Part shown: one piece after another, positions 520 through 17,248 of the stretch
Layout: the number at the start of each line of letters is the position of its first letter
How positions within the stretch are numbered: position 1 is the stretch's first letter
Source: Ethanoligenens harbinense YUAN-3
Lineage (GTDB): Bacteria > Bacillota > Clostridia > Oscillospirales > Ethanoligenentaceae
Length of the DNA stretch: 64,000 nt
Direction of reading: 5' to 3'
NCBI RefSeq assembly: GCF_000178115.2
Contig: NC_014828.1
Coordinates: 643,501 to 707,500, forward strand
Program-made: the position numbers and the translations under genes
Notes under the pieces: generated by a model
The model's database searches: none
Told to the model about the DNA's origin: nothing
The model's input: the letters and a program-made list of their open reading frames with translations, nothing else

Positions 520-642
520 CTTTTTTAGTAACCGTCAAGACCGCGCGCACCTTGTAAGCATGGTGTCGGGGAAGGTACAATGAACTTCAAAAGGGTTCAA
601 AACATGTAATGGAGTGTTTTGGACCAAATTGGAGTGAATAAA

Positions 643-1002: not shown

Positions 1003-1352
1003 TGCAGTTCGGAGAAAAACCTGTGTATCTTTGCTGTGGGTGCACGGATATGAGGAAATCGATCAACGGGCTAATGACGCTTGTGCAGCACAGTTTTTCT
1101 CTCGACCCTTTTGTCGACGCGCTGTTCGTGTTCTGCAACCGAAGCCGTGACCGCCTGAAAATACTGGAGTGGGACGGCGATGGCTTTTGGCTGTATTTCA
1201 AACGGCTGGAACGCGGACATTTCCGCTGGCCGTCGTCAGACGAGGAAACCACAATGACGCTGAACAGTGAGGAACTGTCTTGTCTGATCGATGGCGCAAG
1301 GCTGGAGAAAAAGCTTCGCCGCAGCGAAGTTCTTGAACACAATATTTCGTAA
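999..1352 (+). CDS. tnpB: IS66 accessory protein TnpB (IS66 Orf2 family)
   Basis: This 117-residue protein belongs to the IS66 Orf2-like family, seen from YLCCGCTDMRKSINGL near the N-terminus and the FCNRSRDRLKILEWDGDGF core. TnpB is required together with TnpA and TnpC for transposition; its biochemical role is not settled. The start is GTG 999 or ATG 1002, inside the tnpA stop, so the two are coupled. A 65-bp gap separates it from tnpC. Confidence 0.9.
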   Translation: MMQFGEKPVYLCCGCTDMRKSINGLMTLVQHSFSLDPFVDALFVFCNRSRDRLKILEWDGDGFWLYFKRLERGHFRWPSSDEETTMTLNSEELSCLIDGARLEKKLRRSEVLEHNIS

Positions 1353-1417
1353 CACATCGGGATACGAAAATGCCGTTTTTTCTTGATTCTATGCGGTTTT
1401 TCCGGTATAATTAGAGA

Positions 1418-2950
1418 ATGGAAAAACAAGAAAAAACAATTGAAATACCGCTTTCTGTTTACGAGAATTTTCTCAAACAGGCGGAGCAGATTGCCGAGCT
1501 AAAACAGCAGATTCAGTGGCTGATGGAGCAATTCCGCCTGGCCAAACGTAAGCAATTCGGCGCGTCCAGTGAACAGACGGACAACGAACAATTATGTCTG
1601 TTTAACGAAGCAGAGCAAACCGCCGATTTGACCGTGCCAGAGCCGGAAACCACCGAGGTCAAGGCGCATTACCGCAGAAAGACGCGCCTGACCACCGACA
1701 AGTTGCCGGAAGATTTACCTGTTGAGACCATTGAACACGAGCTGCCGATCGAGGCGCGTATCTGTCCGGACTGCGGTTGTCCTCTGCACAAAATGGGGGA
1801 AGACATCCGTGAGGAACTGAAAATCATCCCGGCAAAAGCCGTGATTGTACGCCATGTACGGCACGTCTATGCCTGCCGCCACTGCGAGGAGTCCTCTGAT
1901 CGTGTGCCGATTGTCAAGGCGGAGATGCCAAAACCCGTCATCAAGGGAGGGTTCGCATCACCCGAATCCGTCGCCCATATCGCCGTGCAAAAATTTGTGA
2001 TGGGCAGCCCGCTTTATCGGCAAGAGCAGGAGTGGGCGCAAAGCGGCATTCTGCTCTCACGTCAAACCATGTCCAACTGGCTCATCAGAGCCTGTGAAGA
2101 TTGGCTGGAGCCAATTTATCAGGAAATGAAGCGACAGCTATGCAATCATCAAGTCCTTCACGCAGACGAAACCACCCTTCAGGTGCTGCATGAGGACGGC
2201 AAGCCCGCCCAGAGTAAAAGTTACATGTGGCTTTATCGTACAAGCGGCGAGGCTAAGCGCCAGATTGTGCTGTATGACTACCAGCGGGATCGAAAGCATA
2301 TCCGTCCGAAAGACTTCTTAGAGGATTTTTCAGGTTTTCTCCATGCAGATGGTTATGACGGATACCACAAGCTGCCTGACCGAATCACCGTGGTGGGCTG
2401 TTGGGCGCATCTGCGTCGGAAATTTGACGAAGCGCTGCAAACACTGCCGAAGGATAAACGGAAATCGTCTGACGCCGCAAAGGGGATTGCTTACTGTGAC
2501 AGGCTGTTTCATTTGGAGAAACAGTTCACTTTGCTGACCCCGGAAGATCGTTTGAAGGAACGCGAACAGCAAAGTAAACCGGTGGTTGAGGCGTTCTACG
2601 CCTGGGTCGGATCGCTCCGGGAACTGCCTAAAACCCTGATGGGTAAAGCAATCCATTATGCACAGTCACAGCGCATGTATCTTGTGCGGTATCTGTTGGA
2701 CGGACGGCTGGAAATCAGTAACAATCGCGCGGAAAACGCCATTCGACCTTTTGTAATGGGACGGAAGAACTGGCTGTTTTCCAACACGCCAAACGGTGCA
2801 AAAGCCAGCGCAATCTATTACAGCTTGATCGTCTCTGCCAGGGAGAATGGTCTTGTGCCTTTTGAGTACCTCACAAAGATTTTCACCGAAGCGCCCAATG
2901 GCGCGGATGTTGAAAACCTCATGCCTTGGGGGGCGTGCCCGTTGATTTGA
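1418..2950 (+). CDS. tnpC: IS66 transposase TnpC
   Basis: This 510-residue protein is the catalytic transposase. The N-terminal 60 residues form a leucine-rich coiled coil (EQIAELKQQIQWLMEQFR), followed by a zinc-binding segment (CPDCGCPLHKMGE and CRHCEE) and the DDE domain. Visible parts of the DDE domain are VLHADETTLQV, FLHADGYDGYH, VGCWAHLRRKF and ISNNRAENAIRPFV, which supplies the catalytic Glu. The product is full length for the family, unlike its twin in the second copy. Its frame passes through a run of six A near codon 7, the site where the second copy has lost one A. Confidence 0.93.
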   Translation: MEKQEKTIEIPLSVYENFLKQAEQIAELKQQIQWLMEQFRLAKRKQFGASSEQTDNEQLCLFNEAEQTADLTVPEPETTEVKAHYRRKTRLTTDKLPEDLPVETIEHELPIEARICPDCGCPLHKMGEDIREELKIIPAKAVIVRHVRHVYACRHCEESSDRVPIVKAEMPKPVIKGGFASPESVAHIAVQKFVMGSPLYRQEQEWAQSGILLSRQTMSNWLIRACEDWLEPIYQEMKRQLCNHQVLHADETTLQVLHEDGKPAQSKSYMWLYRTSGEAKRQIVLYDYQRDRKHIRPKDFLEDFSGFLHADGYDGYHKLPDRITVVGCWAHLRRKFDEALQTLPKDKRKSSDAAKGIAYCDRLFHLEKQFTLLTPEDRLKEREQQSKPVVEAFYAWVGSLRELPKTLMGKAIHYAQSQRMYLVRYLLDGRLEISNNRAENAIRPFVMGRKNWLFSNTPNGAKASAIYYSLIVSARENGLVPFEYLTKIFTEAPNGADVENLMPWGACPLI

Positions 2951-2989
2951 CGGTTACCTTTTTTAAAAGGATTTTCTAAGTATTAAAAA

Positions 2990-4065: not shown

Positions 4066-5439
4066 TTATATTACGCCACTATCTGTAACGAGCCACTTTG
4101 TTACACTTCTCAACTTCTCACATGTTTCTTCAAGTTCTCTTTCAGGATTTGACATTTCTACAATTCCGGCACCTGCCCGCAGCCAAGTATCATCGACTGT
4201 TTGAAAAACGGTTCGCAAGACCAACGCTGCATCCATAGTACCAGTAATATCATATGTTAGTACACAACCGCTATATAAATTTCTTGGATCATTCTCTAAT
4301 CTTCCAATAGCTTCAATTGCTTCAAGCTTGGGAATGCCTGATGCCGTAACTGCTGGGAAAAGCATGTTAAGTGCATGCCATGCATTACAGCCGTTCTTTA
4401 AGTGCCCCACTAATCTGGAACCCAGATGTTGAACTGTCCCTCTTTTTATCACAGACATATATTTGGACACTGCAACAGATCCAGGTATACATACTCGATT
4501 TAGTTCTTCAAATGCTAATTTAACTGAAATTGCATGTTCGGCAATTTCTTTAGGATCACATAATAATTCCCTTTCTAATTTCTGGTTCATCTCGTAATCA
4601 TCTTTCACCAACGCGCGCGTTCCCGCCAATGGAAAAGTGGACACGATAGAGTTCGAATTTACTTCCACTACAGTCTCCGGGCTAAAACCTAAAACTTGCA
4701 TTTGATCCCAGCTAATAAGGTATGAACGTTCCGGATTATTCGCTATCCGTCCGTATACATAGCTAAGAGGCATATTTAATCTACTGTCAATGGATATTTT
4801 TCTCGACATTATCGCTTTCTGATATTTATTATTCTGAATTTCCTTAATACATTCCCTTACAATATTTTTATAGTATTCAGCATTTTTATCCAATAATTGA
4901 TTATCGTCCAACAGCGAAACATTTGAGGATTTTATATTTATCAATAAATTTTCATAATCCTTTATAATGTAAGCAAGAGTTTCTTTTTCTTTTAGTAATT
5001 CCTCTTCGCTATGTGTCTTAATTTCCAATTTATCTACATTCAATTCATATTCGATTTCTGGAAGAAAAAGTCGTATGAGAGCCTTGCTTTCATTCCCTAG
5101 TGGTACATGGTAATTATGACGCGCTAGGCCAAAATTGCACACACCATAGAATCTCCACCCGTCTTGTCCGGCGTAAATGCAAACATTTTGCAGGGTATCA
5201 CTTAATACTCCTGTTTCATATAATTTCTTACCGTCGGCGCTGAATAAAGTGACATATTCATCCGTTACAGAAATTTCCGCATGAATTCCGATTCCAATTG
5301 ATATTTTGTTGCCATTCTCATATAATATATAATTCGATTGGTTATGACTTTGGCAAATCACTGCGGCTAATATATACGGATTTTCTGCCATATTTTTTAC
5401 TTGGCATTTATAATTGAAAGACGTGTTTTCATTAGACAT
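4066..5439 (-). CDS. Salicylate synthase (MbtI/Irp9-type chorismate-using enzyme)
   Basis: The 457-residue protein belongs to the chorismate-utilising MST enzymes and most resembles salicylate synthases, which turn chorismate via isochorismate into salicylate and pyruvate in the cytoplasm. Visible features are Lys208 in KYQKAIMSRK (the usual general base), the GTR loop near 273-275, EIAEHAISVKLAFEEL (297-312), IKRGTVQHLGS (331-341), FPAVTASGIPK (361-371), LYSG near 388-391, RAGAGIV near 421-427, and C-terminal glutamates that would bind magnesium. The first 150 residues are divergent. The start has GAGGGG just upstream. It is the last gene of the cluster, about 200 bp after the ligase. An isochorismate synthase without lyase activity is the main alternative. 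Confidence 0.85.
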   Translation of the reverse strand: MSNENTSFNYKCQVKNMAENPYILAAVICQSHNQSNYILYENGNKISIGIGIHAEISVTDEYVTLFSADGKKLYETGVLSDTLQNVCIYAGQDGWRFYGVCNFGLARHNYHVPLGNESKALIRLFLPEIEYELNVDKLEIKTHSEEELLKEKETLAYIIKDYENLLINIKSSNVSLLDDNQLLDKNAEYYKNIVRECIKEIQNNKYQKAIMSRKISIDSRLNMPLSYVYGRIANNPERSYLISWDQMQVLGFSPETVVEVNSNSIVSTFPLAGTRALVKDDYEMNQKLERELLCDPKEIAEHAISVKLAFEELNRVCIPGSVAVSKYMSVIKRGTVQHLGSRLVGHLKNGCNAWHALNMLFPAVTASGIPKLEAIEAIGRLENDPRNLYSGCVLTYDITGTMDAALVLRTVFQTVDDTWLRAGAGIVEMSNPERELEETCEKLRSVTKWLVTDSGVI

Positions 5440-5636
5440 AAAGAATCCCCTCTCATTATAGGCGGAAGATTGATGTTCTAATTCTTGATATAAACCTTGG
5501 AAATATAATTAACATCTATCCCGATGTTTTATAAATATCCTGCTTGTGAAATCAGCGAAAGACGGTCGGCTTCAAAGTCACATCTGTGAGTTGCCTGTAG
5601 TGACATTATGGGCGTTCAAGCAATCATGATCATTAA

Positions 5637-7187
5637 TTATTGGGACTTGATTTGCTTAAGCCTGATCCTGTCGATTTTTTCCGTTGGCCCCATCGGTATT
5701 TCACTTACAAAACTATACTTAGTAGGGCATTTAAAATGGTCAATATTTGATTTCATATATCGTGTAAGTTCTTTAACTAAATCGTTGCCCGGTAGTATGG
5801 ATGGCTCTAAAACCACATAGGCAACAATTTGCGTCAATTCTTCTTGGCTTACTTCATCATCAACTGCTGCTTGGCGAACTTTGGGGTGTTTAAGTAAAAT
5901 ATTTTCTATTTCATGAGCCTCAACCCACATTCCGTTGACTTTAAATAAGTCTATGCATCTTCCAGCATACCAGAAATATCCATCTTTATCTTGATAAAAT
6001 TTATCACCCGTCCGCATTGAGTTTCCAAACATGACTTTTTGATTTTCTTCGTGCCTGTTCCAATAACCAAGCATAAGACTTTCGCCACTTACCAATAAGT
6101 CACCAATGACACCAACAGGCACAGGGGTGTTATTTGCGTCGACTACTTGAACCTTGTATCCTGGGACCTCCAGACCCGTGCTCCCAGGTTTGACTTTTCC
6201 GAATTGATTGGAAATAAAAACATGTAACAACTCTGTTGTTCCCATGCCTTCGATGATTTCGACGCCGAATCGTTCTTTCCAGCTATTCCATAATGCCATT
6301 GGTAATACTTCACCAGCGCTGTACATGATTCTCATGGGATTTGTGTCAATTAATGCAATATCCGCTATATGTAATAATGAGGAGTAAATCGTTGGTACAC
6401 CAAAAAATATTGATGGTTTATATTCATTTATAGTATTAACAATTTCGAATGCGTTGTTACTATCACTTAAAATGGAAGTTGCGCCTACCCCGAATGTAAG
6501 AAAAGTTGAATTGCCTAAACCATATGCAAATGGCAATTTTGCAACAGAATAGACAATATCATCCTCCGTTATATTCAATATGCCTTTACCAAACAATTCG
6601 ATGCATATGACTATATCATGGTGCATGTGGAGAACGCCTTTTGGCCTACCACTACTCCCTGATGTATACATCCAAAATGCAATATCATCGCGTGACGTGG
6701 AGGAGGTTTCTAATTGTTCTGAGCACGATTCCACTGTTGAAAGAAAATTGTTATTAGTGTTATCGTCAATAATTATTATGTGCTGAAGCCAAGGTGTATC
6801 AATTGCTCCCAATTTGCTTTTCCACTCTTTATTTGTAATTAGTGCATGAACTCTACTGTCCTTAATAATGTACCGAATATCATTCGGCTTTAATCGAGTG
6901 TTTATAAGGATTGGAACAATCCCAACTCGTATCGCCCCTAATAACGCAAAAACATATTCAGGCTGGTCTGGGAGCAAAATGGCGATTCTTTGTTCCATTA
7001 CAATTTGCATATTTTGTAATGCATTTCCATATTTGCAGACATACCTTTCAATATCTGAGTACGTGTATTTACTATTTGCATAGTATAGAGCAATTTTATC
7101 GCCTCGAAATTTTTCTATGTTACATGTGCGAATTAGATATTCACTTACATTAAATTTTTCCGGCAAATTAGAATATATATTTTCCAT
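5637..7187 (-). CDS. Benzoate-CoA-ligase-type adenylating enzyme (probable salicylate activation)
   Basis: The 516-residue ANL-superfamily enzyme has the ATP-binding loop MYTSGSSGRPKG (about 173-184), GMGTTELLH, TGDKFYQDKDGYFWYAGR, and a C-terminal PTEKIDR that places the catalytic lysine near residue 504. The spacing and the GMGTTE/YAGR pattern follow the benzoate-CoA ligase branch, so an aromatic acid substrate is likely. With a salicylate synthase downstream and a carrier protein upstream, I infer that it adenylates salicylate and loads it on the carrier or on CoA. The start has GGGGGA upstream. Substrate and acceptor are inferred, not seen. Confidence 0.8.
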   Translation of the reverse strand: MENIYSNLPEKFNVSEYLIRTCNIEKFRGDKIALYYANSKYTYSDIERYVCKYGNALQNMQIVMEQRIAILLPDQPEYVFALLGAIRVGIVPILINTRLKPNDIRYIIKDSRVHALITNKEWKSKLGAIDTPWLQHIIIIDDNTNNNFLSTVESCSEQLETSSTSRDDIAFWMYTSGSSGRPKGVLHMHHDIVICIELFGKGILNITEDDIVYSVAKLPFAYGLGNSTFLTFGVGATSILSDSNNAFEIVNTINEYKPSIFFGVPTIYSSLLHIADIALIDTNPMRIMYSAGEVLPMALWNSWKERFGVEIIEGMGTTELLHVFISNQFGKVKPGSTGLEVPGYKVQVVDANNTPVPVGVIGDLLVSGESLMLGYWNRHEENQKVMFGNSMRTGDKFYQDKDGYFWYAGRCIDLFKVNGMWVEAHEIENILLKHPKVRQAAVDDEVSQEELTQIVAYVVLEPSILPGNDLVKELTRYMKSNIDHFKCPTKYSFVSEIPMGPTEKIDRIRLKQIKSQ

Positions 7188-7214
7188 ATCTTTATTCCCC
7201 CAACAACATACATC

Positions 7215-7463
7215 TCATTTTGCAGATCCTTTGCTATTCACCAACTGACATATTTCTCCCAGCGTAATATCATTGGAAATTTTATATAGCAATGAAACAT
7301 CAAAATCAAAAGCGTTTTTCAATGCTAATACGACCTCAATGATTTCACTAGAATCCAGTCCAAGGTCAGAGTGAACTTTTGCAGACTCTTTAATTTTATC
7401 ACTTTCAATTCCCAAATCAATCAAAGTCGCTTTTATAATTTTCAGTTCAGAATAAGTGCTCAT
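7215..7463 (-). CDS. Acyl carrier protein
   Basis: This 82-residue acidic protein has the phosphopantetheine attachment motif DLGLDSSEI, with Ser38 as the expected attachment residue, inside a four-helix carrier-protein pattern. It sits between the exporter and the adenylating ligase, so it most likely carries the activated aryl or acyl group for the reductase. The start at 7463 is chosen because AAAGGA lies upstream at good spacing; an in-frame ATG at 7481 lacks this. No phosphopantetheinyl transferase is visible in the window, so a host enzyme must modify it. Confidence 0.88.
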   Translation of the reverse strand: MSTYSELKIIKATLIDLGIESDKIKESAKVHSDLGLDSSEIIEVVLALKNAFDFDVSLLYKISNDITLGEICQLVNSKGSAK

Positions 7464-7477
7464 GCTCACACATCCTT

Positions 7478-8662
7478 TCAATTCCCATCATTTTGATTGC
7501 TGATAATCTCATTTGTTTCAACCACAAAAATTCGTATAATCAAACTGGCTGATAATGCTGCAACTGAACATATAAGGGTGGAAACAAAAAAAGTTAATCC
7601 ATTTATAGTAATACCAACTATTGCACTTCCAGATGCTGTTCCAGCCCACATAAAGGAGTTGTTTAATGACATTACAGTGCCGCGTGAGCTACTGCTCAGT
7701 TGGGTCACAATCACTTGCATTATAGCAAAGGAGGCCCCACCTGCGGCTAACCAAACAAAAACGTCTATTCCAGCTAATATTATGTTAAAAGAAGAGAACG
7801 AAAGTATAAAAAGAGATGCAACCATTATTAATGTTGATATGGATACAAATTTTTTCTTCCCTACTTTATTGCTTAAGACACCGGCCAACTGCATGCCAAT
7901 TAAATTCCCGACTCCTGCAATAATTAAAAACAGACCCGACATTGAAGTATTCAGTTTAAAAGTTTTATTTAACCAATATCCCAGAAAAGTGTATAATCCA
8001 AAATTTGCGAAAGCGACAAAAAATGTTGTCAAAAAGCTAAAAACAATATTCCGTTGCAGAAATACTTTTTTAAAAGAAATAAAATAATTTTGCTTGTTCA
8101 CGGCCGATCCGGACATAGGCAAAAACGCGAGAATGAGAACGACTACTACTATGGCAATAGATCCGAGTACATAAAAAGCTTGTTGCCAACTCATAAACTG
8201 GGCTAACGCTGAGCCAGCAGGGACCCCAATAATCATACCTAAGGATAGTGCAGAAGCTATAACGGCAGTAACTTTACTACGCTCGGCATCAGAAAAATAA
8301 TCGCCTATATATGACCATACGTTCGGAGCGGCGAATGCTGCCCCAGCTCCAGTCAGTGCTCTTGCGACAAGAGTGATCGCAAACACAGAAGTTAATCCGG
8401 TTGCTATGGATGCCAGTGCAAAAACAGCCATCCCAACAAGAATCATTTTTTTCCTGCCAATCATATCTGACAGAGGGCCCATAAAAATTGATACCAACAC
8501 ATAAAACAACGAATAAGCGGTTACTAAATATCCAGAAGTTCCGGCAGCTACGTTTAGCGTTTTCGAGATAAGTGGAATGAAAGGGGAGATAATAAATGTG
8601 TCACATCCTATTAGAAAAAAAACTGCGAATAAAAGTACCGTAACAAGTATTTTTTTATTCAA
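7478..8662 (-). CDS. MFS transporter, probable product exporter
   Basis: A hydrophobic protein of about 394 residues with twelve predicted membrane segments. The MFS signature MGPLSDMIGRKKMILVGM lies between segments 2 and 3, and GAGAAFAAPNVWSYIGDYF follows. It resembles sugar-efflux or drug-efflux MFS pumps. Its place inside the operon suggests export of the pathway product, or protection from it. I choose TTG 8662 as the start: AAAGGTGG lies 8 bases upstream and the start overlaps the stop of the hydrolase gene. GTG 8674 is the longer alternative. Confidence 0.82.
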   Translation of the reverse strand: MNKKILVTVLLFAVFFLIGCDTFIISPFIPLISKTLNVAAGTSGYLVTAYSLFYVLVSIFMGPLSDMIGRKKMILVGMAVFALASIATGLTSVFAITLVARALTGAGAAFAAPNVWSYIGDYFSDAERSKVTAVIASALSLGMIIGVPAGSALAQFMSWQQAFYVLGSIAIVVVVLILAFLPMSGSAVNKQNYFISFKKVFLQRNIVFSFLTTFFVAFANFGLYTFLGYWLNKTFKLNTSMSGLFLIIAGVGNLIGMQLAGVLSNKVGKKKFVSISTLIMVASLFILSFSSFNIILAGIDVFVWLAAGGASFAIMQVIVTQLSSSSRGTVMSLNNSFMWAGTASGSAIVGITINGLTFFVSTLICSVAALSASLIIRIFVVETNEIISNQNDGN

Positions 8663-9402
8663 GTGGAATACCACCTTTCTTTTTTCTGATTAATCCACCA
8701 TACAAGAATCTCGTTAATGTTATTATATAGATACGGAGAAGTATGCTGACCTTGATTAAAAATAAAAACATTTTTTTCGCAGCACGTATGTAGAAATGTT
8801 TTAATCAAAGACTCTACAGGAGAGATCTCATCTTTTTCAAAATGCACTAATAGTATCGGAAGTCCTGGAAGCTTTTTTATTATTTCTCTTACATCGTGAT
8901 CCAAAAAAAATTGGCGTAAACGTTCAGTATCCATACGTACATTATGACCACCTTTATGTTCCTCCATATTTTGTATGGTTAAATTCCATATTTCAGGCGA
9001 CATAACCCATTCCGGTGTTATCGACATACCAAAAACGCCTATTATATTTTTGCGTTTTGCAGCAGCATGAAATGAAAAAAGCCCTCCCATGCACTGCCCC
9101 CCTAGAATAACTGGTAGCTCTAAAGAAAAAAGAGATTGTACATAGTCTATTGCTGTATATAAATCATAAATAGTCTCGTAATTTGCCATTCCATCACTTT
9201 TTCCATGTCCACGGAAATCAAAAGTAAAGACATGATTTCCACTTTTGCAAATGGCTATAGCTTTTTTTTCAAGCCATTCCTTTTTACCGCCCAAATCATG
9301 TGACAAAACGACAATGCTTTTGTTAATGTTATCCTCGTTTGTATAAAGTTTCCCGCTCAATTCTATGTCATTACAGCTAAAGCTAACATCTTCAATTTCC
9401 AA
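8659..9402 (-). CDS. Alpha/beta hydrolase with a Cys nucleophile (LuxD-like position)
   Basis: About 247 residues with the alpha/beta-hydrolase fold: VVLSHDLGG oxyanion strand, FDFRGHGKSDG, the nucleophile elbow GGQCMGG, then an acidic residue in EKDEISP and a histidine in GQHTSP. Counted from GTG 9411 the apparent triad is Cys107, Asp194 and His223. A cysteine elbow is unusual for this fold; dienelactone hydrolase is the familiar case. Its position next to LuxC-like and LuxE-like genes mirrors luxD, the acyl transferase/thioesterase of bacterial bioluminescence operons. I infer acyl or aryl transfer, or hydrolysis from the carrier. TTG 9402 has AGGAG at better spacing than GTG 9411. Confidence 0.7.
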   Translation of the reverse strand: MEIEDVSFSCNDIELSGKLYTNEDNINKSIVVLSHDLGGKKEWLEKKAIAICKSGNHVFTFDFRGHGKSDGMANYETIYDLYTAIDYVQSLFSLELPVILGGQCMGGLFSFHAAAKRKNIIGVFGMSITPEWVMSPEIWNLTIQNMEEHKGGHNVRMDTERLRQFFLDHDVREIIKKLPGLPILLVHFEKDEISPVESLIKTFLHTCCEKNVFIFNQGQHTSPYLYNNINEILVWWINQKKERWYST

Positions 9403-9413
9403 CTTTATCACTC

Positions 9414-10856
9414 CTATGTAGTTGGATTTTCAATTGCCGTTTGGTCAATTACAAAAGCTTTTTCCATATATAAGAACCGACTAAGGTATTCCTCATGTGG
9501 ATTTGAGAAATCCATGTGATTCGTGGGAAGTCCTTTAAAAAGTTTTTTGTTGGAACACGAGAAGAGAAAGCGATTTAGCAGATCATTATCATTCGATAAT
9601 AAAGATAATGATAGTGATTCAAAAGGAACTTCAAAGTATTCTCCATTGCAGTTGTCAATAAAAGTTACAAAAGGAAATGGAAGTTCAGCCCCAATATCAT
9701 TTTTGTTGCGCATATTTGATTCGGTTTGATAAAGTATTGTTGGTAAAATATATGTAACCCCATTCAGTGTCGTCATTCTCGAAAAATCACGATACTTTTC
9801 TGTAATATCAATATAGCCATTCTGAATCATTTTTTCTACATAGTTGTTATATGATTCAGCGATTACATGAGATTTGATTGCCCCTATAGTTGCTTCTCTG
9901 TTTAATGGATCAAATAGCCCAACCTCTGATATTGATTTCGCCAGCAGCTCTGACAGCTCTGCTCCATTTCCGATAAAAAACACAGTGCTAGCATTTATGC
10001 AGCCACGTCCACTGGATTCGCACATAGATGTAAGAATTGTATTAATTACCTTATTCTTATGTTTATGATAATACTCTTCGTCTACTATAACTGCGCTACG
10101 GCCCGGCCCAAAAACCTTTATGCTGTTTTCGATGTATTTTTCTTTTATCTTGGAATCTCCAAAAAGCATTGAAAGATCTGTAGAATCAATCAGTGTATCG
10201 ATTCCAGAATGTTGGCTTGGTATAAACGTAAAATTACATTTAGGAAAACCTGCCTCAATTAAGCATTGAATTAACCTATACGGTGTAAAAGGATCATCAT
10301 CTGAGGGACGTAAAACCACAGGATAACCGAGGGCTACAGCGAGCAACCATAAATTGTTAACGTTAGGGTGGTTCGAAGGAGTCATTACGAACAGATTGTT
10401 TGCTCGGGGTACCCAAGCTATTGTCTTATTCTGAATATAATAATAACCTCTTTCTAGAGCTTCAATATCTCCATTCGGAATTTGCGGCCTTAATGCATCC
10501 TCTATATTTTCCATTAAATCGCTTAATTGGTCAATTGAATTGATTATTACAGAGAAAGGCATGCCAGTGGATAAAGAAACTAGCGTTGCATATTCGTTTT
10601 GATCAATAACCTCGCCTCCCATTTTTATTTTGCCTTTTTGAAATAATTTTGATGCAGTTTTGAATATGTCGATAACTTTCTTTACCGAAAAATGGCGATA
10701 TAGATTCGTTGTTTTCAAATCTGGTTTCAGCATCCACTTTAATACATTTTCATCTATATGCATCAATTCTGCGATTTCTTTTCCAGTGTATGAATACAGC
10801 TTAATAAAATCGCCATTATAATCTTCATTTCCATTGATAATCGCACTAATTTTCAT
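9414..10856 (-). CDS. LuxC-like acyl reductase (aldehyde-dehydrogenase fold)
   Basis: The 480-residue protein is a LuxC/aldehyde-dehydrogenase-superfamily member. It shows the NAD(P)-binding region with MTPSNHPNVNNLW (about 158-170), GYPVVLRPSDDDPFTPYR (177-194) and the catalytic cysteine in SSGRGCINAST (Cys286). LuxC-type enzymes reduce an activated acyl group to an aldehyde with NADPH. Its ATG overlaps the stop of the LuxE-like gene (TAATG), so the two are coupled as in lux operons. No luciferase genes (luxAB) are present. The substrate may be salicyl-carrier or a fatty acyl group; the neighbours favour the former. Confidence 0.75.
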   Translation of the reverse strand: MKISAIINGNEDYNGDFIKLYSYTGKEIAELMHIDENVLKWMLKPDLKTTNLYRHFSVKKVIDIFKTASKLFQKGKIKMGGEVIDQNEYATLVSLSTGMPFSVIINSIDQLSDLMENIEDALRPQIPNGDIEALERGYYYIQNKTIAWVPRANNLFVMTPSNHPNVNNLWLLAVALGYPVVLRPSDDDPFTPYRLIQCLIEAGFPKCNFTFIPSQHSGIDTLIDSTDLSMLFGDSKIKEKYIENSIKVFGPGRSAVIVDEEYYHKHKNKVINTILTSMCESSGRGCINASTVFFIGNGAELSELLAKSISEVGLFDPLNREATIGAIKSHVIAESYNNYVEKMIQNGYIDITEKYRDFSRMTTLNGVTYILPTILYQTESNMRNKNDIGAELPFPFVTFIDNCNGEYFEVPFESLSLSLLSNDNDLLNRFLFSCSNKKLFKGLPTNHMDFSNPHEEYLSRFLYMEKAFVIDQTAIENPTT

Positions 10857-11923
10857 TAGTAGACCCCCTCGATTATCGCATCCTTCATTTTTTCATATAG
10901 TGCAACATCAGAAACACCATCCCAGGCATATTCATCTGTTCCGGGTATACGAATAGCTTCATCTCTCTCAAGGAGATTTGGAATAAAATAATCCTTGTTC
11001 AAAACCGTAATGCATATACGACCTTTTTGGTAATAATCGACGCACTCTTTCCAAGAATTATCATTTACAACTTTCAAAGTGAAATATGGGAAAAAACCAT
11101 AATAACGAACACCAGTACTCTCCTTGTATCCAACGCTAGGGGCAACCCCCATCAATGTGTTTCCATAGCTAATGCAAAGAGGAATGTCCTTTGTAATATT
11201 ACTCTTTAAAAATTTATAAAATGGGCCGGTAACATGAGTCCCGCCAATAATAATACCTTTAATATTTTTAAATGACACTTTACTGGCAAGTTCAGGAAGT
11301 AGCTTGGGAGTTGTCATAATACAAGAAATGTTTTGTGTGTTCAGTATATTGACGGCTTGGAGAATGACATGATCTATATATTGTTGAGTTCCTCTTTTGT
11401 CATTTTCTTTCACCATCACTTTTATCCATCTCGTATCAATATCTACGAAATAGCATAAACCACCTCCACGTATTTTTGCGATTTCAGCCGTCGTATGTCC
11501 AACGACATGTGGTCCGGACGGGCCGAGGTGAAGCCAATTTCCTTTCTGCGGAAAGTTATGTTTGTCGAGTGAAAAGGATATCCATTCTGCTAATTTCTTT
11601 CTGTATTCACAATCAATTATACGTTTGGGATCCCCTAACGTTCCACCGGTTTCAAAAACTCTTAAAGCAATATTGTTGTTTTTATATCCACGCGGAATTA
11701 AACTATCAACAGGAACTGCTTTCAAGTCTTCGTCGTTGAATACGCCGAACATTTCAAGATCTTGAAATGTTTTTATTTTTTGAATTGGATCAAATCCTAA
11801 TTCTTTTATTTTGTTGAGCCAATAATCACATCCTGTGTCTTCACTAAAATGCCAAGAAATAATCTTTCTAGTCCATTCATCCAAATCCACATTTCTGTTA
11901 AAAAAAGGTTGGAAAACCGTCAT
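10856..11923 (-). CDS. LuxE/PaaK-like acyl-activating enzyme
   Basis: About 355 residues related to acyl-protein synthetase LuxE and phenylacetate-CoA-ligase-like enzymes, recognised from the ATP-loop-like FETGGTLGDPKRI, the HLGPSGPHVVGH segment and ISYGNTLMG. LuxE activates an acid as acyl-AMP and passes it to the reductase LuxC. With the separate benzoate-type ligase, the cluster therefore has two activating enzymes. The start ATG 11923 has GGAG nine bases upstream; ATG 11950 lacks one. The exact substrate cannot be read from the sequence. Confidence 0.7.
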   Translation of the reverse strand: MTVFQPFFNRNVDLDEWTRKIISWHFSEDTGCDYWLNKIKELGFDPIQKIKTFQDLEMFGVFNDEDLKAVPVDSLIPRGYKNNNIALRVFETGGTLGDPKRIIDCEYRKKLAEWISFSLDKHNFPQKGNWLHLGPSGPHVVGHTTAEIAKIRGGGLCYFVDIDTRWIKVMVKENDKRGTQQYIDHVILQAVNILNTQNISCIMTTPKLLPELASKVSFKNIKGIIIGGTHVTGPFYKFLKSNITKDIPLCISYGNTLMGVAPSVGYKESTGVRYYGFFPYFTLKVVNDNSWKECVDYYQKGRICITVLNKDYFIPNLLERDEAIRIPGTDEYAWDGVSDVALYEKMKDAIIEGVY

Positions 11924-11970
11924 GTCTATCCACTCCATTCTTTTTGACAAATATTAAGTCTTTAAAAAAT

Positions 11971-13023
11971 TCAATTTTTAAATATGTGTTTTGTTTCTGG
12001 AAATAGTTTTATGAAATCTTCTTTTTTACTTATTTCATAACCATCAGTATTTTTGTCAAATGATATCATGCCGATTTCGCATAGTCCCTGTAAAAGTTTT
12101 GGAGTGTTTCTTTTTGTTTGTTCGGGGACATCCATTAATCGAAGAATTGAATTGACATCGGATTTTGGATGTTTTAATAAAATATAAGAAATTTGATAAA
12201 TCAAGGTAGGATATGTCTTGAAATTTTTCACAGTTGGATAATTTCCGGAGACTTCAATATTATGGATAGAGTGTCCCATTTGTGTTTCAATAGCATTTTT
12301 TAAATATTTTACCGAGAACGGATCAACTCCAATAAATTTAGAAGCGATATAATCAACCTCTACGACATTATCTCCTGTCATAAATATTCCAGCGCCAACA
12401 GGGTTTCCGAAAATTGGGCCTTGACCTTCTAATGCCTGAATTCCATCGACTATTGTAAGGTTTGGCCTAAACTCTTTTAGCAATGCGACAAGTAAATCAT
12501 GTATATAAAGATGGTATTGGGATTTATTTTTAACGGAAAGAAGACCGAATAGATTCTTCATGCCTACGGAAATTTTCGCATATATATGAGCTTTTAATAC
12601 AGGAATATTTATAAGATAATCAAAGTTTTTTAGTAAATCTGCAAAGTCTATATTGTACTCTTTTTCGAGGCCTTTTATTTTTCTTGTTGATGTTTTTTCT
12701 TCGCTTAAGTTTACTAGGCTCGTGTTTGGATAATCTGAAAGAAAACTTGGATTCCATACTTTTATGTTGTCTTTGAAATCAGAGCTTGTGGTATCCGATT
12801 CGACGATATATACATTTTTAAATCTTGATAAAGCATTTAGCGCCCCTTTGATTATCTCATGATGAGTAGTGACCCCCGACTCGGGTGAAAAAGGCGCACA
12901 AATATTAGGTTTTATTATGATCTTGCTTTCCTGTGCAAGATTTCTAGTGTATGATTCCACTATGTTTTCCACGATATTTTCTACTTCTTGTAAGTCGTCA
13001 ACCTTTTCAATAAGCACTCCCAT
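11971..13023 (-). CDS. DUF362-family protein, first gene of the salicylate cluster
   Basis: A 350-residue protein with DUF362 landmarks: IKPNICAPFSPESGVTTH near the N-terminus, VYIVESDTTS, YLINIPVLKAH, VGMKNLFGLL and VDGIQALEGQGP. Many DUF362 proteins carry ferredoxin-type cysteine clusters, but this one does not. Its C-terminal 65 residues (ILRLMDVPEQTKRNTPKLL onward) look like a winged helix. The biochemical function of the family is unclear. Start ATG 13023 has AAGGGAG upstream; longer in-frame ATGs lack one. It is transcribed first from the promoter shared with hxlR. Confidence 0.65.
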   Translation of the reverse strand: MGVLIEKVDDLQEVENIVENIVESYTRNLAQESKIIIKPNICAPFSPESGVTTHHEIIKGALNALSRFKNVYIVESDTTSSDFKDNIKVWNPSFLSDYPNTSLVNLSEEKTSTRKIKGLEKEYNIDFADLLKNFDYLINIPVLKAHIYAKISVGMKNLFGLLSVKNKSQYHLYIHDLLVALLKEFRPNLTIVDGIQALEGQGPIFGNPVGAGIFMTGDNVVEVDYIASKFIGVDPFSVKYLKNAIETQMGHSIHNIEVSGNYPTVKNFKTYPTLIYQISYILLKHPKSDVNSILRLMDVPEQTKRNTPKLLQGLCEIGMISFDKNTDGYEISKKEDFIKLFPETKHIFKN

Positions 13024-13112
13024 AATGATATCTCCCTTTTCTTTGTCCGATACTTTAGATGAAAATTTATTTGGTATACCTATTTCCAGAAAGTTGACAC
13101 ATCTTACCTTTA

Positions 13113-13179
13113 AATATATAATAACGATATATAACTGTAAAGTAAGCACTTGGAAGTAACATGGTATACAATATATACT
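13113..13179. promoter_or_regulatory. Divergent promoters with a probable HxlR operator
   Basis: Leftward, for the biosynthetic operon: -35 TTTACA (13141-13136) and -10 TATATT (13118-13113), spacer 17. Rightward, for hxlR: -35 TTGGAA (13150-13155) and -10 TATACT (13174-13179), spacer 18. A 14-base element TGTAAAGTAAGCAC at 13136-13149 covers the leftward -35 box and abuts the rightward one. Its exact inverse recurs at 13579-13592 behind hxlR. HxlR-family operators contain GTAAGT/ACTTAC-type half sites, so this is the best operator candidate and would control both directions. Confidence 0.6.
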
Positions 13180-13206
13180 ATGTATATCATGCGAGGAGGA
13201 TTAATT

Positions 13207-13560
13207 ATGATCGATTTAAACAATTTGCCTCCATGCCCTGTAGAGACCACGCTATTGCTTATAGGCGATAAATGGAAGGTCATCATTATTCGTGAGTTAC
13301 TAACGGGAACAAAACGGTTTGGACAATTAAAGAAATCCATCGGAACTATAACACAAAAGGTATTAACTCAAGATTTAAGGGTTATGGAAGAGAATGGACT
13401 TGTTAAAAGAAAAGTCTATGCCGAAGTGCCTCCAAAAGTAGAATATTCCCTTACGGAATTTGGAAGGAGTCTAAAACCTATTTTGGATGCAATGTATAAA
13501 TGGGGAAAGGACTTTCATACCATAGTGGCAAAAAAAGAACTTTTATCTGGTATGAAATAG
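13207..13560 (+). CDS. HxlR-family transcription regulator
   Basis: The 117-residue winged-helix protein matches the HxlR family: PPCPVETTLLLIGDKWKVII, RFGQLKKSIGTITQKVLTQD and LRVMEENGLVKRKVYAEVPP. Cys10, just before the first helix, is the position used by thiol-sensing members such as YodB and HypR, which respond to quinones, aldehydes and other electrophiles. It is divergent from the biosynthetic operon, so it probably regulates it and itself. A reactive aldehyde product would be a fitting signal; that is inference. ATG 13207 has AGGAGG upstream. Confidence 0.88.
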   Translation: MIDLNNLPPCPVETTLLLIGDKWKVIIIRELLTGTKRFGQLKKSIGTITQKVLTQDLRVMEENGLVKRKVYAEVPPKVEYSLTEFGRSLKPILDAMYKWGKDFHTIVAKKELLSGMK

Positions 13561-13592: not shown

Positions 13593-13730
13593 TATTGAAT
13601 AAAAAGAGTTTATACGTAACCGTCAAGACCGCGCGCACCTTGTAAGCATGGTGTCGGGGAAGGTACAATGAACTTCAAAAGGGTTCAAAACATGTAATGG
13701 AGTGTTTTGGACCAAATTGGAGTGAATAAA

Positions 13731-14090
13731 ATGGATACGCAAAAAATCGCGAGGGAGTTCCGGCTATCAGAGTGGGGCGAGGCGGTAAAGGAGCGAATAG
13801 CTGGCGGGCAGAGCGTGGACGCATTTTGCGAAGAAAAAAACATCAGCAAGGCCACCTATTACTACAGGCAGAAAAAAGTACGGGAAGCTGCCTGCATGGA
13901 GCTTATGGAGAAACAAAAGCGCGGAACCGGGCTTGTGCCGGACGGCTGGACGCAGCTTACGGAAGCAAAATCTGTTACTGCCGGCGAAGGCACCCTAGAC
14001 ATTGAAATCGCCGGCTGCCATATCCTTGCAAATGCCCAAACCGACCTGGAATTGCTGGCGAGAGTCTGCCGCATCCTGAGATCGCTGTGA
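13731..14090 (+). CDS. tnpA: IS66 accessory protein TnpA (copy 2)
   Basis: Identical in sequence to the TnpA of copy 1 (119 residues from ATG 13731, with GGAGTG upstream). It overlaps tnpB at its stop. It can still supply TnpA in trans to other IS66 copies. Confidence 0.85.
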   Translation: MDTQKIAREFRLSEWGEAVKERIAGGQSVDAFCEEKNISKATYYYRQKKVREAACMELMEKQKRGTGLVPDGWTQLTEAKSVTAGEGTLDIEIAGCHILANAQTDLELLARVCRILRSL

Positions 14091-14440
14091 TGCAGTTCGG
14101 AGAAAAACCTGTGTATCTTTGCTGTGGGTGCACGGATATGAGGAAATCGATCAACGGGCTAATGACGCTTGTGCAGCACAGTTTTTCTCTCGACCCTTTT
14201 GTCGACGCGCTGTTCGTGTTCTGCAACCGAAGCCGTGACCGCCTGAAAATACTGGAGTGGGACGGCGATGGCTTTTGGCTGTATTTCAAACGGCTGGAAC
14301 GCGGACATTTCCGCTGGCCGTCGTCAGACGAGGAAACCACAATGACGCTGAACAGTGAGGAACTGTCTTGTCTGATCGATGGCGCAAGGCTGGAGAAAAA
14401 GCTTCGCCGCAGCGAAGTTCTTGAACACAATATTTCGTAA
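14087..14440 (+). CDS. tnpB: IS66 accessory protein TnpB (copy 2)
   Basis: Identical in sequence to the TnpB of copy 1 (117 residues, IS66 Orf2 family, YLCCGCTDMRKSINGL). It starts within the tnpA stop codon. Its downstream partner tnpC is frameshifted in this copy. Confidence 0.9.
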   Translation: MMQFGEKPVYLCCGCTDMRKSINGLMTLVQHSFSLDPFVDALFVFCNRSRDRLKILEWDGDGFWLYFKRLERGHFRWPSSDEETTMTLNSEELSCLIDGARLEKKLRRSEVLEHNIS

Positions 14441-14505
14441 CACATCGGGATACGAAAATGCCGTTTTTTCTTGATTCTATGCGGTTTTTCCGGTATAATT
14501 AGAGA

Positions 14506-16037
14506 ATGGAAAAACAAGAAAAACAATTGAAATACCGCTTTCTGTTTACGAGAATTTTCTCAAACAGGCGGAGCAGATTGCCGAGCTAAAACAGCAGATT
14601 CAGTGGCTGATGGAGCAATTCCGCCTGGCCAAACGTAAGCAATTCGGCGCGTCCAGTGAACAGACGGACAACGAACAATTATGTCTGTTTAACGAAGCAG
14701 AGCAAACCGCCGATTTGACCGTGCCAGAGCCGGAAACCACCGAGGTCAAGGCGCATTACCGCAGAAAGACGCGCCTGACCACCGACAAGTTGCCGGAAGA
14801 TTTACCTGTTGAGACCATTGAACACGAGCTGCCGATCGAGGCGCGTATCTGTCCGGACTGCGGTTGTCCTCTGCACAAAATGGGGGAAGACATCCGTGAG
14901 GAACTGAAAATCATCCCGGCAAAAGCCGTGATTGTACGCCATGTACGGCACGTCTATGCCTGCCGCCACTGCGAGGAGTCCTCTGATCGTGTGCCGATTG
15001 TCAAGGCGGAGATGCCAAAACCCGTCATCAAGGGAGGGTTCGCATCACCCGAATCCGTCGCCCATATCGCCGTGCAAAAATTTGTGATGGGCAGCCCGCT
15101 TTATCGGCAAGAGCAGGAGTGGGCGCAAAGCGGCATTCTGCTCTCACGTCAAACCATGTCCAACTGGCTCATCAGAGCCTGTGAAGATTGGCTGGAGCCA
15201 ATTTATCAGGAAATGAAGCGACAGCTATGCAATCATCAAGTCCTTCACGCAGACGAAACCACCCTTCAGGTGCTGCATGAGGACGGCAAGCCCGCCCAGA
15301 GTAAAAGTTACATGTGGCTTTATCGTACAAGCGGCGAGGCTAAGCGCCAGATTGTGCTGTATGACTACCAGCGGGATCGAAAGCATATCCGTCCGAAAGA
15401 CTTCTTAGAGGATTTTTCAGGTTTTCTCCATGCAGATGGTTATGACGGATACCACAAGCTGCCTGACCGAATCACCGTGGTGGGCTGTTGGGCGCATCTG
15501 CGTCGGAAATTTGACGAAGCGCTGCAAACACTGCCGAAGGATAAACGGAAATCGTCTGACGCCGCAAAGGGGATTGCTTACTGTGACAGGCTGTTTCATT
15601 TGGAGAAACAGTTCACTTTGCTGACCCCGGAAGATCGTTTGAAGGAACGCGAACAGCAAAGTAAACCGGTGGTTGAGGCGTTCTACGCCTGGGTCGGATC
15701 GCTCCGGGAACTGCCTAAAACCCTGATGGGTAAAGCAATCCATTATGCACAGTCACAGCGCATGTATCTTGTGCGGTATCTGTTGGACGGACGGCTGGAA
15801 ATCAGTAACAATCGCGCGGAAAACGCCATTCGACCTTTTGTAATGGGACGGAAGAACTGGCTGTTTTCCAACACGCCAAACGGTGCAAAAGCCAGCGCAA
15901 TCTATTACAGCTTGATCGTCTCTGCCAGGGAGAATGGTCTTGTGCCTTTTGAGTACCTCACAAAGATTTTCACCGAAGCGCCCAATGGCGCGGATGTTGA
16001 AAACCTCATGCCTTGGGGGGCGTGCCCGTTGATTTGA
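14506..16037 (+). pseudogene. tnpC: IS66 transposase TnpC with an early frameshift (copy 2)
   Basis: The ATG at 14506 is the same start as in copy 1, but the A run near codon 7 has five A instead of six. The original frame then ends after about 25 altered residues. The rest of the protein is open and unchanged: an internal ATG at 14610 would give 475 residues with the zinc-binding and DDE parts but without the start of the N-terminal coiled coil. The gene is probably inactive unless slippage on the A run or internal initiation rescues it, or copy 1 helps in trans. Confidence 0.8.
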
Positions 16038-16093
16038 CGGTTACGTTTATACTATACGCGAAGCCAACAACAAACGTTTAGGAGGTTGACAAA

Positions 16094-16558: not shown

Positions 16559-17129
16559 TTAGTCGGGCCTTTTTGTGTGATTATTCTTTTGTTGACCGCA
16601 GAAAACGTTGTCATATACGGTTGCAATGAATGATGTAGTAACGATAGGCAAGCCCGTTTCGCGGCTTGCAATCTTCAATAGTTCTAGTCCGTCCGCCTTT
16701 AAACCCTGAAATGAATAAGGTGAAGTGCGTGGCTTATACGCAATTACCACGTAAGAGATTTGCCCCTGCCAATTGAACTCTATGTGCCACTTCAACAATT
16801 TGCTTTTCACTTTCCACCGCACAGGGCCCGGCCATCCTAGCAAATTGTTGACTGCCAATTATCAAGTTGTCTTTGATTTTAATACTAGTGTTTTGAGGAT
16901 GCATTTTACGGTTTGCTCTTTTATACTGTTCGTTAATACGATCAACGCTTTCCACAGTTTCCTGCGTTGCGAGCATTTCCTTGTCAATTGAAGAGACATC
17001 CCTGAATAATCCAATGGCCGTGAACTTATCTCCAGCCGAGATATTTACAGTTACATTACACTTTTCTATCAGTTGTAGAAGTCCATCAAACTTTTCCTTT
17101 GGTACGCCACTTTTTACGACTACAATCAT
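16559..17129 (-). pseudogene. Broken DAHP synthase (AroF type, N-terminal part)
   Basis: From ATG 17129 (GGAGG upstream) the frame reads MIVVVKSGVPKEKF, then KMHPQNTSIKIKDN and [20 protein letters not shown] up to LLRGNC. It then shifts near 16740 to [20 protein letters not shown] and ETGLPIVTT, after which similarity is lost. These are the regulatory and catalytic-start segments of the AroF-type enzyme that condenses erythrose 4-phosphate and PEP, the entry to chorismate. One frameshift and loss of the C-terminal half make it non-functional. It stands behind an FMN riboswitch and terminator, which is unusual for this gene. It may once have supplied chorismate to the salicylate cluster. Confidence 0.75.
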
Positions 17130-17206: not shown

Positions 17207-17248
17207 GAATATGAATAGAACGATATGGCTACTAAAAATATAGTCAAA

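Follow-up and report, generated by a model that had tools for sequence, protein, structure and literature searches.

The question raised by this locus is what a compact operon makes when a salicylate synthase lies in it beside genes for activating, reducing, transferring and exporting an aromatic acid. The window, the whole stretch of DNA analysed here, comprises 64,000 nucleotides from Ethanoligenens harbinense YUAN-3. Positions 4066-13560 hold nine open genes, which encode a DUF362 protein, an EhpF-like protein, an EhpG-like protein, a hydrolase, an MFS protein, a carrier protein, a ligase, a salicylate synthase and a divergent HxlR regulator (Table 1). From the DUF362 gene to the ligase gene, neighbours overlap or are separated by at most 27 bases, and 197 bases precede the salicylate synthase. 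A preliminary description of the region had given the same gene order and strands, and the families that it named for the salicylate synthase, benzoate-type ligase, carrier, MFS protein, alpha/beta hydrolase, DUF362 protein and HxlR regulator all exceed their profile cut-offs.

Table 1. Features of the locus, with positions in the window and the evidence for each assignment.
Feature	Position	Strand	Evidence or remark
IS66 copy 1	528..2957	+	own 8-bp duplication CTTTTTTA
Salicylate synthase (MbtI/Irp9 type)	4066..5439	-	TIGR03494, 416.4 bits (cut-off 325.15)
Aryl acid-AMP ligase, benzoate-CoA ligase family	5637..7187	-	TIGR02262, 454.1 bits (cut-off 375.25)
Free-standing acyl/aryl carrier protein	7215..7481	-	PF00550, 22.8 bits (cut-off 20.8); GLDSSE attachment motif
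MFS exporter (predicted)	7478..8674	-	PF07690, 178 bits
Alpha/beta hydrolase, proposed acyltransferase	8659..9411	-	PF12146/PF00561; Cys nucleophile elbow GGQCMGG
EhpG/GriD-type aryl carboxylate reductase subunit (predicted)	9414..10856	-	PF00171, 58.6 bits; aligned to EhpG-position proteins
EhpF/GriC-type adenylating subunit (predicted)	10856..11950	-	phmmer to EhpF (3l2k/3hgu), E about 6e-56; tree
DUF362 protein, candidate NPN enzyme	11971..13023	-	PF04015, 120 bits; H146-x9-K156-N-x13-H171
Candidate operator, 11-nt inverted repeat with 10-nt spacer	13160..13191		divergent promoter region
HxlR-type regulator, N-terminal Cys	13207..13560	+	PF01638, 122 bits
IS66 copy 2	13616..16044	+	own 8-bp duplication GTTTATAC
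DAHP synthase remnant, frameshifted and truncated	16559..17131	-	PF18152 over cut-off; PF00793 just below (N-terminal part)

The explanation that we favour, and consider moderately probable from the sequence, is that the operon was gained by horizontal transfer and makes a small molecule derived from salicylate, with an EhpF/EhpG-type pair, an acyl-transfer branch and a DUF362 protein that acts as a nickel-pincer nucleotide (NPN) enzyme. The MbtI-type enzyme would make salicylate from chorismate, and the EhpF/EhpG-type pair would reduce salicylate, its presumed acid substrate, to salicylaldehyde, which might be reduced further. A second branch, made up of the ligase, carrier and Cys-nucleophile hydrolase, would transfer an aryl group to an acceptor, and the MFS pump would export the product. 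The HxlR regulator may sense an electrophile such as an aldehyde, and the DUF362 protein, judged by its fold, its motif and the neighbours of its relatives, may be a LarA-fold enzyme that carries out NPN hydride transfer on an aromatic intermediate. Such an operon would extend the substrates of two-protein aryl carboxylate reductases to salicylate, and would give an aromatic-aldehyde route in a host that we take to be an anaerobe. The earlier claim that no pathway with this gene combination has been described is not contradicted by searches of open-licence PMC papers.

The role proposed for the DUF362 protein bears on a wider problem. According to excerpts of a survey in mBio (PMC11796402), about 15% of the genomes surveyed have larB, larE and larC without larA, the NPN-binding protein there is unknown, and its fold is expected by the authors to differ from that of LarA. 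In another paper (PMC11770544), DUF362 is placed as the outgroup of LarA within the same Pfam clan; no further DUF362-NPN link was found in the open-licence PMC literature, as far as its text was accessible. The structure model of the window protein is weak (mean pLDDT 50.9) and its C-terminal part is poorly modelled. The top 11 entries returned for this model by VIA-align are all of LarA type (Z 12.4-10.8, with the next entry at 7.6), which suggests, at low confidence, a LarA-like fold for the N-terminal domain. Foldseek returned nothing for the model at E 0.001, with a LarA-type malate racemase in first rank (E 3.4e-3); it took the subsequent VIA-align comparison to set the LarA-type entries apart from the rest.

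The LarA cofactor-site motif H-x9-K-[NS]-x-H occurs in all 11 intact DUF362 sequences, compared with 33 of 3037 background ORFs. It covers the counterparts of the NPN-linking Lys, the second catalytic His (His174) and the Ni-ligand His of LarA, in a register that rests on the motif and on one profile alignment with a probability of 0.3%, built from few sequences. We take the motif Lys to be the NPN-linking Lys and the final His to be the Ni-ligand His, by LarA numbering. When the DUF362 and LarA profiles were compared, the local alignment set the H and K in register, whereas the global alignment paired the wrong ends. The DUF362 gene of sister actinomycete clusters has larE, larB and larC next to it, and a search with one LarA query detected no larA in the lar-bearing loci. 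The host genome has larC and larE, and no larA over the cut-off. Given the possible LarA-like fold, the motif, the lar neighbours of its relatives and the lack of a larA over the cut-off in the host, the DUF362 protein is a candidate for the missing NPN enzyme. We propose tentatively, and with a probability that falls somewhat short of even, that DUF362 proteins use NPN in bacteria with larB, larC and larE but no larA, and that here and in the sister actinomycete clusters they perform NPN-dependent hydride chemistry beside an EhpF/EhpG-type reductase, with an aromatic acid or aldehyde derived from chorismate as substrate.

The view that the DUF362 protein is not an NPN enzyme has a nearly even chance. 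In the sister clusters, lar genes would then serve another protein or make a sulfur-bearing pyridine that ends up in a product, and larC and larE in the host would be left over from a larA-bearing lineage; one same-genus and one same-family genome do have LarA over the cut-off (G391 and G392). The window protein has no match to Lar_N (PF09861) at E 0.1, and the first catalytic residue of LarA, His108, finds no invariant upstream His in eight aligned DUF362 rows. A DUF362 paralogue in the same genome scores 20.5 bits against PF09861, below the cut-off of 23.3. The association with lar genes is also incomplete: two loci (L021 and L032) have an intact DUF362 gene and no lar gene within the available stretch, two of three plasmid DUF362 loci (L123 and L124) have neither a lar gene nor EhpF nearby, and one locus (L048) has larE, larB and larC with no DUF362 gene within its stretch. 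Against this view stand the motif common to all intact sequences, the LarA-type entries that alone head the structural matches, and the failure of the one LarA query used to find a match in the lar-bearing loci. If DUF362 does act as an NPN enzyme here, it would catalyse the first nickel-pincer step known to us from the biosynthesis of a natural product. The DUF362 family is a concrete candidate NPN user for genomes that lack larA, with a cofactor-lysine motif and with clusters in which lar genes adjoin it.

The proposed first step, from chorismate to salicylate, is well supported, as the preliminary description had it: the enzyme passes the TIGR03494 cut-off, its best PDB matches are Irp9 and MbtI, and the catalytic MbtI residues K205, E252, H334, T361, Y385 and R405 each align with an identical residue, so that identity as an MbtI/Irp9-type salicylate synthase is secure at the level of sequence. 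The ligase has as its best PDB match an entry named anthranilate-CoA ligase (4wv3), followed by benzoate-CoA ligases, and the genome encodes two PF01648 (PPTase-family) proteins, which count in favour of carrier priming. By their predicted activities, the ligase and the free carrier can attach an aromatic acid in thioester linkage.

The two genes upstream of the hydrolase, which overlap by one base, encode the predicted aldehyde-forming pair. The EhpF-like protein is 32-37% identical to eight homologues and matches no adenylating-family profile and no LuxE profile at E up to 10 with HMMER filters on; the EhpG-like reductase, at the same limit and with the same filters, matches only PF00171 (Aldedh), and its catalytic Cys286 is invariant (7/7 in one alignment, 4/4 in another). 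The genes for the pair adjoin in five of the seven plasmid records examined (Pantoea, E. coli, Halalkalicoccus, Burkholderia and Streptomyces goshikiensis); they are set apart in Streptomyces NBC_00998, and in Streptomyces Mut1 EhpF lies next to a polyketide synthase without an EhpG partner. The pair has the predicted parts for adenylation of an aromatic acid and its reduction to an aldehyde, and to this extent the aldehyde-forming pair of the preliminary description stands; its kind is that of EhpF/EhpG, or of the presumably related GriC/GriD, and not of LuxC/LuxE.

The preliminary description had the reductase act on salicyl-carrier. An unlikely explanation of this sort is that the carrier is charged with salicylate, which the EhpG-like protein reduces there, while the EhpF-like protein has no role beyond repair or recycling of free acid. 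The ligase, carrier and reductase do share one operon, and Pantoea and Burkholderia likewise have a free carrier close to EhpF/EhpG, but in Halalkalicoccus and S. goshikiensis no separate carrier is annotated next to the pair. In the characterised two-protein reductase GriC/GriD (PMC10179220), GriC turns the acid into acyl-AMP and GriD then reduces it, which leaves reduction of salicyl-carrier by the pair unsupported and makes it more probable that the ligase and carrier form a second, acyl-transfer branch. Such a branch has a parallel in the Pantoea phenazine cluster, where EhpF/EhpG are accompanied by a ligase, a carrier and a KASIII-type protein. The hydrolase would belong to it: the GGQC of its elbow is invariant in the window hydrolase and those of related loci L016 and L015, and since the nucleophile is Cys, acyl transfer is likelier than hydrolysis. 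Its structure model is weak (mean pLDDT 56.6), and Foldseek returned general esterases and no functional lead.

These two related loci show which parts of the operon recur. The core shared with L016 is DUF362-EhpF-EhpG-hydrolase-MFS, the MFS proteins being 46% identical over 252 amino acids; that shared with L015 is EhpF-EhpG followed by a ligase fused to the hydrolase. Neither genome has a salicylate synthase over the TIGR03494 cut-off, and among 80 EhpF loci no salicylate-synthase-like match exceeded 373 residues or 40% identity. Parts of the core thus recur without a salicylate synthase; the shared core does not require one, and its substrate may be a different acid. In L015 and L016, each of which runs up to a contig edge, the carrier has no tblastn match. 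With the hydrolase as query (E 1e-20), no further core copies were found in 196 other relatives of the L016 genome or 198 of the L015 genome.

The operon appears foreign and horizontally acquired, to judge from its low G+C and from the rarity of EhpF and EhpG in relatives. G+C per kilobase is 33-39% in the operon (4-13 kb) versus 46-57% at 18 to 40 kb. EhpG (E 1e-20) has no match in 390 other genomes of the host's class; EhpF (E 1e-10) has none among 97 other host relatives, and across the phylum it occurs in 2 of 397 other genomes. Carriage by phage was rejected: no EhpF relatives occur in 50,697 phage records, and none of 24 pattern matches in IMG/VR is a relative. The EhpF scan query was an alignment of four sequences, all nine being too diverse. 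No plasmid relatives of the hydrolase were found.

The operon has IS copies for neighbours, together with a disrupted DAHP synthase whose frame break was read in the sequence, and may therefore be decaying. The IS66 transposase gene has nine full-length copies in the genome, the two flanking ones included. A composite transposon was rejected, since each flanking copy has its own 8-bp target duplication and no single duplication encloses their outer ends. It is quite improbable that the operon is a degrading relic with no present product: insertions on both flanks, the broken DAHP synthase and the frameshifted, IS-interrupted state of the related locus L016 speak for decay, yet the IS copies fall outside the operon, its nine genes are all open, and the DUF362 and HxlR genes have clear ribosome-binding sites. 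These place the DUF362 start at ATG 13023 behind AAGGGAG and the HxlR start at ATG 13207 behind AGGAGG, a better start than the candidate upstream at 13150. The candidate operator between the two genes is weak, as short palindromes are common in A+T-rich DNA.

Very little probability attaches to a LuxCDE-like trio that converts an acyl-carrier to a fatty or aryl aldehyde, in the manner of a bioluminescence system that lacks luciferase: the same three biochemical roles lie side by side, and LuxE and EhpF are both adenylating enzymes, but no LuxC or LuxE profile (which we take to be PF05893 and PF04443) matches at E up to 10, the nearest relative is EhpF, the hydrolase has a Cys elbow with no LuxD profile listed, and the ligase and synthase belong to aromatic-acid families. 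The LuxC, LuxD and LuxE labels of the preliminary description are accordingly withdrawn. A salicylate-capped siderophore locus is just as improbable, for although MbtI/Irp9-type enzymes mostly serve siderophores, whose pathways usually begin with an aryl ligase and a carrier, inspection of the ORFs at 1-20 kb by eye revealed no NRPS or siderophore-uptake gene, and the reductase pair and DUF362 would be left unexplained.

Several known systems come close to the operon. With the LuxCDE fatty acid reductase it shares the roles of adenylation, acyl handling and reduction, and differs in that its proteins match no LuxC, LuxD or LuxE profile. Its synthase resembles the MbtI/Irp9 enzymes in the curated cut-off passed and in every catalytic residue checked, while siderophore genes were not seen near the operon (ORFs at 1-20 kb). 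The DUF362 protein resembles the LarA NPN racemases in its predicted N-terminal fold and H-x9-K...H site, and differs in lacking a Lar_N match and a found counterpart of His108. The EhpF/EhpG phenazine cluster of Pantoea (Enterobacter) agglomerans, the product of which is D-alanylgriseoluteic acid, likewise has adjacent adenylating and ALDH-fold proteins (34% and 28% identical to EhpF and EhpG, respectively) with an extra ligase, a free carrier and an MFS pump alongside, and it has a KASIII-type protein next to the pair; it differs in its phenazine core genes, in place of which the present operon has a salicylate synthase, a DUF362 protein and a Cys alpha/beta hydrolase. GriC/GriD of grixazone biosynthesis in Streptomyces griseus (PMC10179220) also convert an aromatic acid to an aldehyde via acyl-AMP with two proteins, the difference being that their substrate is 3-amino-4-hydroxybenzoate.

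The preliminary description of this operon was sound as an observation, except that it named two of the genes LuxC and LuxE: neither profile matches the proteins concerned at E values up to 10, and the ligase-like protein matches EhpF in sequence searches. Its EhpG-like partner has an aldehyde-dehydrogenase fold in which Cys286 is invariant (7/7 aligned proteins). Hydrolytic aldehyde dehydrogenases carry the glutamate of an ELGGK motif, at the site of which this partner has, by inspection, FGPGR, a replacement that would be as expected of a reductase. In grixazone biosynthesis, the related proteins GriC and GriD activate 3-amino-4-hydroxybenzoate and then reduce it, according to an excerpt of PMC10179220. 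The two genes adjoin in 5 of the 7 plasmid records examined (Pantoea, E. coli, Halalkalicoccus, Burkholderia and S. goshikiensis); they are separated in the Streptomyces NBC_00998 plasmid, and in the Streptomyces Mut1 plasmid the EhpF gene adjoins a polyketide synthase. The EhpF gene also adjoins a sodium:solute symporter gene in the Halalkalicoccus plasmid (L010) and, by eye, in one further locus (L005, genome G652), a neighbourhood that points, in these two cases, to an aromatic acid being taken up and reduced and not to biosynthesis.

The identification of the salicylate synthase holds, since TIGR03494 scores 416 bits (cut-off 325) and the window protein aligns identical residues with K205, E252, H334, T361, Y385 and R405 of MbtI, which we take to be catalytic. 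The alternative that the enzyme is rather of the isochorismate or anthranilate type is disfavoured by the profile scores, because the corresponding models reach at most 217, each under its own cut-off.

Within the operon, which runs from the DUF362 gene to the salicylate synthase gene, neighbours overlap or lie within 27 bases of each other, the exception being a 197-base gap before the salicylate synthase. The G+C content per kilobase is 33-39% in the operon, versus 46-57% at 18 to 40 kb of the window. The operon is flanked by two IS66 copies in the same orientation, 99.8% alike over 2441 aligned bases, and the host genome, a single contig of 3,008,576 bases from what we take to be an anaerobe, holds 9 full copies of the IS66 transposase gene. 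A composite transposon is ruled out because each flanking copy has its own separate 8-bp duplication, and the copies therefore arrived separately. A small PNPOx gene and the frameshifted remnant of a DAHP synthase follow beyond copy 2 and are also lower in G+C (41-44%). Before the insertion of copy 2, the foreign stretch may therefore have extended to about 17.1 kb. The second FMN riboswitch of the window looks orphaned, as what lies downstream of it is this remnant and not a riboflavin gene.

Coordinates of the operon, its surroundings and related clusters
Feature	Location	Strand	Remarks
Operon	window 4066-13023	minus	DUF362 start ATG 13023, salicylate synthase stop 4066 (ORF and start-site reading)
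DUF362 gene	window 11971-13023	minus	
HxlR gene	window, start ATG 13207		divergent from operon (start-site reading)
Part of IS66 copy 2	window 14510-16037		small indel versus copy 1; listed transposase ORF 475 aa versus 510 aa
DAHP synthase remnant	window 16559-17131	minus	broken
Hairpin	window, near 17176-17205		by eye, at second FMN riboswitch
Second FMN riboswitch	window 17245-17375	minus	109.6 bits
Nearest syntenic relative	L016:6940-14224		decaying; DUF362, hydrolase and MFS as overlapping split frames; transposase between DUF362 and EhpF
Actinomycete cluster	L054:3227-12402		chorismate enzyme, EhpF/EhpG, DUF362, larE, larB, larC; also a PF04199 cyclase
Actinomycete cluster	L040:5288-15431		chorismate enzyme, EhpF/EhpG, DUF362, larE, larB, larC
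Actinomycete cluster	L023:5432-15401		chorismate enzyme, EhpF/EhpG, DUF362, larE, larB, larC

Among 391 genomes of the class, only the window's own has an EhpG-type match at E 1e-20; EhpF-type matches at E 1e-10 occur in 1 of 98 relatives, again the own genome, and in 3 of 398 genomes of the phylum, the own genome included. Scanning genome contigs yielded 199 confirmed EhpF relatives, of which the best 80 were retained. When the co-occurrence of the operon's genes is followed across these 80 loci, as had been proposed at the outset, part of the core proves to be shared with two of them, L016 and L015, the only two that have the hydrolase in common with the window. L016 has the gene order of the window (DUF362, EhpF, EhpG, hydrolase, MFS) with an IS after DUF362, and its DUF362, hydrolase and MFS genes are frameshifted, while L015 has EhpF, EhpG and then a ligase fused to the hydrolase; both stop at contig edges. 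In an EhpF-type tree of 90 rows, for which each locus gave its longest stretch of more than 200 residues and L003-L007 were excluded, the window protein is the partner of L015 (support 100/99). The Pantoea protein falls in a different major branch, and the placement of L016 is unsure. The best salicylate-synthase matches in the 80 loci are partial (24-40% over 197-373 residues). TIGR03494 matches none of 10 chorismate enzymes sampled from the EhpF loci at E 1e-50; 9 score best as isochorismate-, anthranilate- or aminodeoxychorismate-synthase-like, and 1 has no match. A salicylate synthase over cut-off is present in 10 of the 46 genomes searched (of the 80), those of L015 and L016 having none. 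As the matches in the loci are partial and these two genomes have no synthase over cut-off, a salicylate synthase beside the EhpF/EhpG pair is seen only in the window.

The DUF362 protein (PF04015, 120 bits) has no match among solved structures by sequence search. Its structure is predicted with low confidence (mean pLDDT 50.9), and the model retrieves nothing with Foldseek at E 0.001. In a second structural comparison, with 1000 chains, the top 11 entries are all LarA-type enzymes of the nickel-pincer nucleotide (NPN) (Z 12.4 to 10.8; next 7.6), the matches covering mostly residues 6 to 212 of this weak model. We take the cofactor lysine of LarA to be residue 184 and its nickel-ligand histidine residue 200. 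The pattern H-x9-K-[NS]-x(12-16)-H occurs in all 11 intact DUF362 sequences, 3 of them from the host (the window protein and the paralogues L121 and L122, the latter identified by tblastn at E 1e-15) and the broken L016, L037 and L039 being excluded. It also occurs in 4 of 5 reference LarA proteins, the fifth (L105) having A after the lysine; a less strict version of the pattern had served to choose these five ORFs, yet they are identical to the frames of the Lar_N matches. The background is 33 of 3037 ORFs of at least 250 residues across all loci, DUF362 and LarA proteins counted in. The paralogue L121, which has ferredoxin domains, gives a sub-threshold Lar_N match (20.5 bits) over the motif stretch. 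In NCBIfam the window protein matches only Npun_F2552 (69 bits against a cut-off of 500), a family that presumably, going by its name, originates from Nostoc punctiforme. Excerpts of the literature place DUF362 and the DUF2088 of LarA in one Pfam clan (PMC11770544), and describe the LarA cofactor as held on a lysine via a thioamide, with a histidine that completes the coordination of the nickel and a catalytic pair formed by His108 and His174 (PMC12611868). As most cyanobacteria are reported, in an excerpt of PMC11796402, to produce NPN in the absence of LarA, the Npun_F2552 match is a lead.

Of the best 80 EhpF loci, 8 contain DUF362 in an intact or broken form: it is intact in L021, L023, L032, L040 and L054, frameshifted in L016, and, by our reading, decayed in L037 and L039. 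The NPN-building genes larB, larC and larE occur together in 4 of the 80 (L023, L040, L048 and L054), 3 of which have DUF362, a co-occurrence with a one-sided Fisher p of 0.0026 that serves only as a guide since the loci are related. In L048, the one without DUF362 in view, the EhpG match lies at the very edge of the stretch, and DUF362 would be expected beyond it, going by the order in L040. Among the ORFs scanned, LarB exceeds its curated cut-off in L040, L048, L125 and L054, and LarC in L040, L048 and L023; LarE and the other LarB and LarC calls come from tblastn. Three plasmid records have a DUF362 relative. One of them, L125 (Streptomyces NBC_01450), has larC, larB and larE adjoining a chorismate-enzyme-like gene, with no EhpF match within the 46 kb read; in the other two, L123 and L124, the vicinity of DUF362 holds no lar gene.

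A single LarA query gave no match in the lar-bearing loci. With no LarA seen, the lar genes of these clusters and the cofactor lysine conserved in a protein of LarA-like fold point to DUF362 as a candidate user of NPN there and, by homology, in the window. Against this reading, the window protein fails the Lar_N test, LarA His108 has no evident counterpart in DUF362, and no lar genes are in view at several loci with an intact DUF362. In the host genome, LarC and LarE exceed their cut-offs but nothing exceeds that of Lar_N, the two sub-threshold places lying inside the DUF362 ORFs L121 and L122; as LarA is over cut-off in a same-genus and a same-family genome (G391 and G392), host larC and larE could instead be leftovers. 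If DUF362 does use NPN, then, LarA catalysing hydride transfer on 2-hydroxy acids, its candidate substrates in the operon would be an aromatic acid, aldehyde or alcohol. According to PMC11796402, larB, larE and larC occur without larA in about 15% of genomes, for which that paper supposes an NPN protein of a kind still unknown. The greater interest of the operon is that it has given a testable candidate for this orphan cofactor.

The hydrolase, ligase and carrier may form an acyl branch. The hydrolase elbow reads GGQCMGG, with GGQC invariant in the 3 members found (window, L016 and L015), and a cysteine at this position occurs in alpha/beta hydrolases that transfer acyl groups or cleave lactones. 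The enzyme may act on the ligase product, which fits the ligase-hydrolase fusion of L015. The host has two PF01648 proteins, the larger under the NCBIfam PPTase cut-offs, that could arm the carrier. The EhpF/EhpG cluster of Pantoea has an additional AMP-ligase together with a free carrier and a KASIII-type protein, and it presumably attaches D-alanine to a reduced phenazine. In an analogous way, the ligase, carrier and hydrolase of the window may join an aryl group to an acceptor. The cluster is a variant of the EhpF/EhpG type, new in having its own salicylate supply.
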